Below, piece by piece: positions 12,807-13,900 of a stretch of 64,000 bases of DNA (the stretch's first letter is position 1; the number at the start of each line of letters is the position of its first letter). The translations under genes and the position numbers were made by a program. This DNA comes from Arthrobacter globiformis NBRC 12137 (GTDB taxonomy: Bacteria > Actinomycetota > Actinomycetes > Actinomycetales > Micrococcaceae). The notes under the pieces were generated by a model. It was not told where the DNA came from, did no database searches, and saw only the letters and a list, made by a program, of their open reading frames with translations. The stretch is taken from positions 62,001 to 126,000 of the forward strand of contig NZ_BAEG01000083.1 in NCBI RefSeq assembly GCF_000238915.1, written 5' to 3'.

Positions 12807-12861
12807 GGAACCAATGTAGCGCCGGCGGCTTGGGTCTAGACAGGCTCGACCAACGCACAGC

Positions 12862-12898
12862 GAAGCCCCGCTGCAGCGTGGTGCTGCAGCGGGGCTTC
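12862..12898. terminator. Strong GC-rich hairpin downstream of the winged-helix/X25 gene
   Basis: Perfect 16-bp arms GAAGCCCCGCTGCAGC (12862-12877) and its complement (12883-12898) with loop GTGGT. It sits just beyond the stop of the leftward gene at 12911, so it most likely terminates that transcript. Confidence 0.8.
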
Positions 12899-12910
12899 GG
12901 CCGGATGGGG

Positions 12911-13786
12911 TCAGTTGACGGTGATGTCCCGGGTCCGGTGGTCGTAGCGGATCGTGAGCTGTCCGCCGGAGTGGTGCAGTTCGTGGTTGGCTCCATCGAA
13001 CGCGCCGAACGCGCCATAGTTCTCATCCCAGGAACGGTTGAGGGCGATCTTAAAGGTGTAGTAGCCAGCCGGGACTTCAGCCGAAAGCTTCCACAGCTGG
13101 TCCAGCTCGTCCAGCTTCATCTGCGCTTCGTCGTACTGCGGTGCCCAGTTCTCCGGGGCTCCCAGCAGGGTGTTGAAGTCGCCGGCCACAGCTACGGCGG
13201 CGGGCTGGTCGATGGCTTCCGCGGAGCTTTCGACGGCGGGAGCCTGCGCTTCAGCGTCGGCCTCTGCCTTCTTCAGGACAGCCTTGGCCACGGGAGCGAC
13301 TGCATCCTCGATCAGCTTGGCGGCCTTGTCGACAACCTTCGCTGCCTTGGACGGAGCCTTCTCTGCCTTGGCTGCGGCGGCCTTCGCGGGCGCTTTCTTG
13401 GCTGCCGGCTTGGCAGGTGCAGCCACCGGAAGGGGCGTGTCGGCAGGGACCGGGGTACCGGCGTCGAGCGCTGCCGAGAAGCTGGCTGCGTCCGGGAAAG
13501 CAACCGTAGCGCGCTGCCCGTCCTCGGTGATGGTCCAGCCGGAGCGTCCCTTGACCAGCCAGCCGGCCTTGACCAGCTTGGCCGTGGCGGTGGTCAGCGA
13601 TTTGTGGCCGCGGGGGATCCCGCCGCTGAGGAGTTCAGCTTCGTAGGCGTTCAGCGGAACCCGGACGAGGGCTTCAGCCAGCACGGCGCCGGCGTTCTGC
13701 GACTCACCGGACAACACCCCCTCTGCCAGAACGTCCAGCACGGCCTTAAGGCGGATGTTGGTGTTTTCGGCGGCAGTCTTGCGCAT
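12911..13786 (-). CDS. Winged-helix / Lys-Ala-rich / X25-module fusion protein
   Basis: 291 residues from the ATG at 13786 (TAAGGGGA upstream; a longer frame to 13828 is less likely). Residues 10-97 look like a winged helix related to Mrr-N-type DNA-binding domains, ending [25 protein letters not shown]. Residues 120-180 are rich in Lys, Ala and Pro ([18 protein letters not shown]), like histone H1 tails. Residues 198-290 match the pullulanase X25 / carbohydrate-binding-like module: [17 protein letters not shown], then [18 protein letters not shown]. There is no signal peptide, so it should be intracellular. The mix suggests a DNA-associated protein with an alpha-glucan-sensing or binding domain. 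Domain calls are moderately sure; function is unknown. A 20-bp dyad lies upstream. Confidence 0.75.
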
Positions 13787-13820
13787 GGTTCCCCTTACAG
13801 AGCGATTGTTCCCCCAGTAG

Positions 13821-13840
13821 TTTGCCAAGTACTGGGCAAA
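13821..13840. promoter_or_regulatory. 20-bp near-perfect dyad, candidate operator
   Basis: TTTGCCAAGTACTGGGCAAA is palindromic except for one mismatched pair flanking a central AGTACT. It lies 35 bases upstream of the winged-helix/X25 start, a suitable place for autoregulation or another regulator. Confidence 0.5.
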
Positions 13841-13900
13841 TCTGGCGACTTTGTTCGGTAAACATTGTGTGTCGTGACCGACTATGACGGGGATTACACC

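Follow-up and report, generated by a model that had tools for sequence, protein, structure and literature searches.

The gene at 12911..13786 (minus strand) of a 64,000-nt window of Arthrobacter globiformis NBRC 12137, the window being the whole stretch of DNA that was analysed, raises the question of what a winged-helix domain and an X25 glucan module might do together in one small, cytoplasmic-looking protein. The reading frame is open throughout, starts with ATG and encodes 291 aa followed by a stop codon, with a ribosome-binding site, AAGGGG (13791..13796, minus strand), that is also present in close relatives. An ORF of 343 aa on the opposite strand (12830-13861, plus) was taken as a shadow, because it is the minus-strand frame that is under purifying selection. 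NCBIfam holds no model for the 291-aa protein, and returned three matches at chance level (E 0.18-0.28). In the AlphaFold model of the whole protein (mean pLDDT 75.6, pTM 0.47), confidence was high for two domains and low for the linker, which leaves the placement of the N domain relative to the X25 module undefined. An earlier note, made from the sequence, had read this ORF as a winged helix joined to an X25 module; Pfam, the AlphaFold model, fold matches that give a winged helix at one end and an X25 fold at the other, and the recurrence of the same layout across the family all confirmed that reading.

The C-terminal assignment is secure. The X25 module (aa 191-291; 12914..13216, minus strand) was recognized by Pfam (PF22058, aa 198-286) at E 1.4e-20, with 73.6 bits against a cut-off of 27, and was matched in all 41 proteins scanned singly (the window protein and 40 of the 51 named relatives). 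The best fold match for this half of the protein was the pullulanase 2WAN (Z 13.9, rmsd 1.6 over 92 residues), and further matches included Sca5 X25-2 (7RPY, Z 11.1), 8JN0 (Z 10.2) and SusF (4FE9, Z 9.8). The PDB profile matches that came next after X25 were the glucan phosphatases DSP4/SEX4 and AMPK beta, all of them glucan-binding modules of the CBM48 type, and AMPK1_CBM was matched by Pfam in 7 of the 41 members (best E 0.00041). A tblastn search of plasmids matched aa 187-289 to a pulA pullulanase.

At the other end of the protein (aa 1-116; 13439..13786, minus strand), the Pfam match to Mrr_N (PF14338, aa 14-93) fell below the cut-off in the window protein alone (E 0.0019, 18.7 bits vs 29.5), yet it is supported by the family, in which 35 of the 41 singly scanned proteins matched Mrr_N at E <= 1 (best E 6.4e-8). 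Folded alone, the N domain was modelled with a pLDDT of 83.2, and its fold neighbours were winged helices of the MarR, Rrf2, PadR and DtxR types at Z of about 7-8.3, a range in which Z can reflect merely a common arrangement of structural elements; the top matches, at Z about 8, were NadR, NsrR and the PadR-type Rv0047c, and together with the Mrr_N matches of the family they support the Mrr-N/winged helix that had been proposed for this end. Foldseek by itself returned no N-domain match at E <= 0.001, and the winged-helix call was based on the second fold comparison and Pfam.

The sequence relatives of this domain belong to proteins that act on DNA. Its profile also detects Mrr proteins (Mrr_N + Mrr_cat) and McrB-like proteins (Mrr_N + AAA_5), with three of the profile matches assigned by Pfam to Mrr_N + Mrr_cat or Mrr_N + AAA, and tblastn against plasmids paired aa 1-103 with a protein annotated as part of an Mrr system (36% identity, E 7e-6). 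Genomes of the family also encode proteins of ~710-730 aa in which Mrr_N is combined with an AAA domain of the McrB-like type and which are closely related to the N domain (L210-L214). Pfam detected neither Mrr_cat nor an ATPase domain in the window protein, and Mrr_cat was absent from the 25 commonest families found in the 41 members. Mrr-N is described as a presumed DNA-binding winged helix (PMC3874153). Four basic residues of the domain are nearly invariant among the 121 copies of the fusion found in the family, namely R59 (120/121), K73 (119/121), K79 (121/121) and R81 (118/121). The main rival to a DNA-binding role would be an adaptor, in which the winged helix binds a protein and the X25 module brings this partner to glycogen granules, much as glucan phosphatases and AMPK beta are recruited to glucan. 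Such a role is consistent with the presence of winged helices that do not bind DNA but protein (CUL1 WHB, MukE) among the N-domain fold matches, with the X25 profile matches to the AMPK beta and SEX4/DSP4 modules, and with an N domain that is not basic overall (12 K+R vs 12 D+E) and thus has no net positive charge; the DNA-acting relatives (Mrr, McrB-like) and the conservation of basic residues in the helix-wing region nevertheless make it unlikely in our estimate.

The highest mean Kyte-Doolittle hydropathy over any 18-aa window of the 291-aa protein was 0.87, and in the 121 family copies, scanned from the beginning of the N domain onward, no window exceeded 1.6. By this crude hydropathy test nothing points to a signal peptide or a transmembrane helix, which agrees with the earlier remark that a signal peptide is lacking and argues for a cytoplasmic protein. 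Pfam found no GH13 match in the window protein, and with no export signal seen either, the protein is not a secreted starch enzyme that happens to carry an X25 module.

Between the two domains lies a linker (aa 117-190; 13217..13438, minus strand) that is Ala/Lys-rich and then acidic, and that was modelled at pLDDT <50 over aa 126-188. It had been described as a histone-like Lys/Ala tail, a description that applies here only to its first half (aa 117-158, pI 10.4; aa 159-190, pI 4.4) and that did not hold for the family: a conserved Lys/Ala-rich basic tail of the kind seen in histone H1-like/HC2 proteins was not found across the 121 copies, in which linker length varies between 0 and 138 aa, with 3 copies lacking a linker, and net charge between -25 and +12, with 42 copies positive, 67 negative and 12 at zero. 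Because length and charge vary so freely, the conserved unit is the two-domain fusion and not the tail, and the histone-like tail was rejected as a functional part. The same counts bear on the possibility that the protein tethers granules to the nucleoid, with the basic linker and winged helix holding DNA non-specifically while X25 holds glycogen. The basic half-linker of the window protein and an HC2 histone-like Pfam match in 5 of the 41 members (best E 0.0024) would fit such a tether, which is nonetheless quite improbable when a positive linker charge is confined to 42 of 121 copies.

The fusion itself is kept with great regularity. N-domain profile matches occurred in 124 of the 295 Micrococcaceae genomes searched; five of these genomes held just McrB-like or Mrr-like proteins, and the remaining 119 carried the fusion, in 121 copies, each with one N domain and one X25 (121/121). 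Within ten genera it was present in 119 of 125 genomes (g1 24/24, g7 15/15, g8 10/10, g17 1/3, g18 1/1, g24 21/22, g28 5/5, g30 1/1, g31 18/21 and g32 23/23, as counted by eye from match tables). Two genomes carry a second copy (L171, L215), of which one is strongly diverged (L215, genome G285), and in another of the 119 genomes (G192) the gene, L122, is split across two frames, either through a sequencing error or because the gene is broken. The named relatives, at least 51 loci that all encode both domains, belong to Arthrobacter, Pseudarthrobacter, Paenarthrobacter and Sinomonas. Outside the family, searches of the phylum (346 genomes) and the order (297 genomes) yielded nine N-domain matches, all Mrr-like (L125 by Pfam, the others by eye), McrB-like or short, with no X25 in the fetched stretch around any of them; the X25 modules seen outside the family in the order search were all in ORFs of at least 900 aa among the matches listed. 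One Mrr_N-kind winged helix and one X25 are thus joined in one cytoplasmic-looking protein that is kept across ten genera. Both domains are under purifying selection, with dN/dS against eight named relatives of 0.018-0.216 for the N domain and 0.089-0.236 for X25 (0.082-0.647 for the linker).

Of 96 X25 rows, 3 were dropped as duplicate or gappy, and we built a tree from the other 93, namely 41 fusion modules picked by hand, 22 modules that belong to secreted enzymes of the family and 30 from the order. The 41 fusion modules formed one clade, with a support of only 0.34, and this clade was joined at a support of 0.945 by nine X25 modules from secreted proteins of the family. This topology points to one likely origin of the fusion's X25, inside the family, from a module of the secreted-enzyme kind. 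An origin from phages or mobile elements was not supported: a search of the phage collection gave no full-length match, and the single PHROGs match had an E of 0.04. Among plasmids, the match that came near to full length, with a query coverage of 75%, was to a 1.35-Mb Arthrobacter replicon. Two unannotated records labelled as bacteriophage from human faeces (MT836818.1, MT835825.1), possibly bacterial contigs, contain X25-like stretches at 38-41% identity.

Whether the module could still bind sugar can be judged from its residues. Seven positions of X25 are invariant in all 121 copies: Trp214, Trp232, Lys246, Trp253, Asn256, Gly258 and Gly265. Counted along the 7RPY alignment with the residue numbers of PMC9112005, Trp214 (codon 13145..13147, minus strand) aligns with Sca5 Trp620, and Trp253 (codon 13028..13030, minus strand) with Sca5 Trp661 (= Sas20 Trp481), the pair of Sca5 X25-2 that stacks against the maltooligosaccharide ligand, an equivalence taken from a weak sequence alignment and the fold match (first domain i-Evalue 0.0016; second domain, used for the Trp pair, 0.41, weak alone). 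Mutation of Sas20 Trp481 is reported to have abolished binding (PMC9112005). According to the same source, paired X25 lobes of Sas20/Sca5 bind maltoheptaose at 0.61 uM, isolated lobes show no binding, and SusF modules bind at about 300 uM. Since isolated Sca5 lobes do not bind, a lone X25 might be inactive unless the protein forms a dimer. It is this behaviour of the isolated lobes (PMC9112005) and the lack of an Asn opposite the ligand-contacting Sca5 Asn684 in the window protein's X25 alignment that speak for a module that no longer binds sugar and would serve dimerisation or stability in an ordinary regulator. The retention of Trp214, Trp253, Lys246 and Asn256 in 121/121 copies, and of Trp214, Trp253 and Asn267 in secreted X25 modules too (12-row alignment), renders that loss distinctly unlikely.

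The genomic setting was compatible with a glycogen-related role at the level of whole genomes. The branching enzyme GlgB scored above cut-off in 210 of the 295 family genomes, namely in all 119 that carry the fusion and in 91 of the 176 that lack it (counted by eye; a Fisher test, with relatedness and genome size ignored, gave p 1.9e-24). Common descent and genome size may be all that this association reflects. Glycogen and trehalose pathways are reported for Arthrobacter genomes (PMC8171050). The A. globiformis genome itself contains a second X25 (L002) that is C-terminal in another protein and lies beside a further gene. From their sequences we take that protein to be a GH13-type enzyme and the neighbouring gene to encode a 4-alpha-glucanotransferase-like protein.

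The immediate neighbourhood of the fusion was less informative. The upstream neighbour lies at a distance of at least 131 bases, and the commonest neighbours at 52 loci were genes that we take, from their sequences rather than from Pfam, to be adenosine-deaminase-like (28), acylphosphatase-like (27) and a TM0106-type helicase (18). With such gaps and neighbours of no visible metabolic meaning, a conserved operon was rejected. No glycogen genes adjoin the fusion, with two weak exceptions: upstream of L079, a second fusion copy in Paenarthrobacter sp. DKR-5, a plus-strand ORF looks by eye like the antisense of malQ, and at 7 of the 52 loci (L038-L040, L042, L045, L046, L051) a GH13 gene resembling oligo-1,6-glucosidase (by eye) lies ~4 kb or less downstream on the opposite strand.

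Upstream of the gene, a near-perfect 20-bp palindrome, TTTGCCAAGTACTGGGCAAA, occurs at 13821-13840 (expected 0.01 per window); it was rejected as an operator, its arms being absent upstream of the 114 other copies among the 115 examined, and no conserved palindrome or operator was found upstream of the fusion in these 115 copies. A second element, GACACACAATGTTTACC (GACACRC-N3-GTTWACC; 13857..13873, minus strand), is kept in part of the family, with GACACRCNNNGTTWAC present upstream of 20 of 115 copies although the adjoining gene differs, and could be part of the promoter. A whole-genome scan for this element returned just one exact site and one with a single mismatch, so no regulon is visible. 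That neither an operator nor a regulon was found is a further point in favour of the adaptor considered above.

In genus g24 only, the fusion is flanked by a PLD-helicase gene and a DNA methyltransferase gene, at 9 and 8 of 71 flanked loci, respectively (loci L251, L254-L257, L259, L078 and L081, plus L253, L260 and L077 for the methyltransferase). The helicase is presumably SauUSI-like. Close copies of the PLD-helicase were found in 4 of 15 genomes tested, and the g24-type methyltransferase in 15 of 15, which marks it as a core gene; with flanking confined to g24, a link to restriction/modification was rejected. The same facts weigh on the idea that the protein reads modified, for example glucosylated, DNA, as a restriction leftover or partner that combines Mrr_N without a nuclease with a glucose-stacking module. 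This idea takes its appeal from Mrr_N relatives that act on modified DNA (PMC3874153) and from the adjoining g24 genes; given a methyltransferase that is core and elsewhere in most genomes, the scarcity of the helicase, the lack of a nuclease or ATPase part, and an occurrence in 119 of the 125 genomes from ten genera that is unlike that of patchy defence genes, we regard it as highly improbable.

Together, the DNA-binding fold and the X25 module suggest, without proving, a regulator that senses the cell's own glycogen. The model joins a winged-helix fold and a candidate ligand part (X25, with putative binding) in one chain, as in one-component regulators, and our tentative reading, somewhat short of an even chance though ahead of the adaptor, is a conserved one-component regulator of the Micrococcaceae whose effector would be an intracellular alpha-glucan, either glycogen or maltodextrin. 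For the fusion itself, we infer sugar binding, DNA binding and the existence of target genes from these likenesses. The functional proposal of the earlier note accordingly stands in one half: the glucan-linked regulator agrees with the Trp pair (121/121) and GlgB (119/119), and the alternative of a nucleoid protein is weakened by the non-conserved linker charge.

By analogy with the tandem X25 lobes of Sas20/Sca5, a mechanism can be imagined that requires a dimer. The winged helix would bind DNA, probably as a dimer, and the two X25 modules of this dimer would meet over a glycogen or maltodextrin chain through Trp214 and Trp253, in the manner of the tandem lobes. Closure of this clamp would alter or release DNA binding, and the target genes, most likely those of reserve-glucan or carbon metabolism, would then follow the amount of stored glucan. 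That a winged-helix dimer indeed closes an X25 clamshell on glycogen, which would make it the first bacterial one-component regulator with a storage polymer as its effector, is doubtful, if somewhat less so than the adaptor. To our knowledge, bacterial glycogen is controlled by enzyme allostery or by small molecules, ADP-glucose among them. A glucan module coupled to a DNA-binding fold could let the cell measure its reserve directly, and, if the proposal is true, gene expression would respond to how much glucan is stored, or to the length of its chains, instead of to a small precursor. The fusion is near-universal among these hardy soil bacteria; because it is small, and single-copy in nearly all sampled genomes, deletion and binding tests would be simple in laboratory strains of Arthrobacter, which are harmless.

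The earlier note knew of no described system with this layout, and we likewise found no description of a winged-helix/X25 protein in the open-access PMC literature, where absence is weak evidence. Mrr and McrB-like restriction proteins have the Mrr_N kind of N domain in common with the fusion, but carry an Mrr_cat or ATPase domain, and the window protein has neither. AMPK beta offers an intracellular glucan-binding module of related fold that gave a weak profile match to the fusion's X25; this CBM48-type module belongs to a kinase complex without a DNA-binding domain. The glycogen-binding module of AMPK beta is used for sensing or targeting. Among bacterial regulators, E. coli GgaR (YegW) controls glycogen accumulation, as proposed for the fusion, but is described as a GntR-family protein that senses ADP-glucose, not the polymer (PMC10819704). 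The closest analogue is Arabidopsis BZR1-BAM7/BAM8, in which a DNA-binding domain is joined to a starch-metabolism part, and which is described as a proposed metabolite sensor (PMC6394054); it is a nuclear plant protein whose BZR1 and GH14 domains are unrelated to those of the fusion, with no shared ancestry. By family and fold, X25 is that of B. acidopullulyticus pullulanase (2WAN), R. bromii Sca5/Sas20 (7RPY) and B. thetaiotaomicron SusE/SusF, and the Trp pair of these secreted alpha-glucan modules is matched in the alignment by Trp214 and Trp253. Whereas those modules leave the cell attached to dockerins, catalytic domains or more X25, the fusion pairs a single X25 with a winged helix in an apparently cytoplasmic protein, a secreted-enzyme module apparently reused inside the cell.
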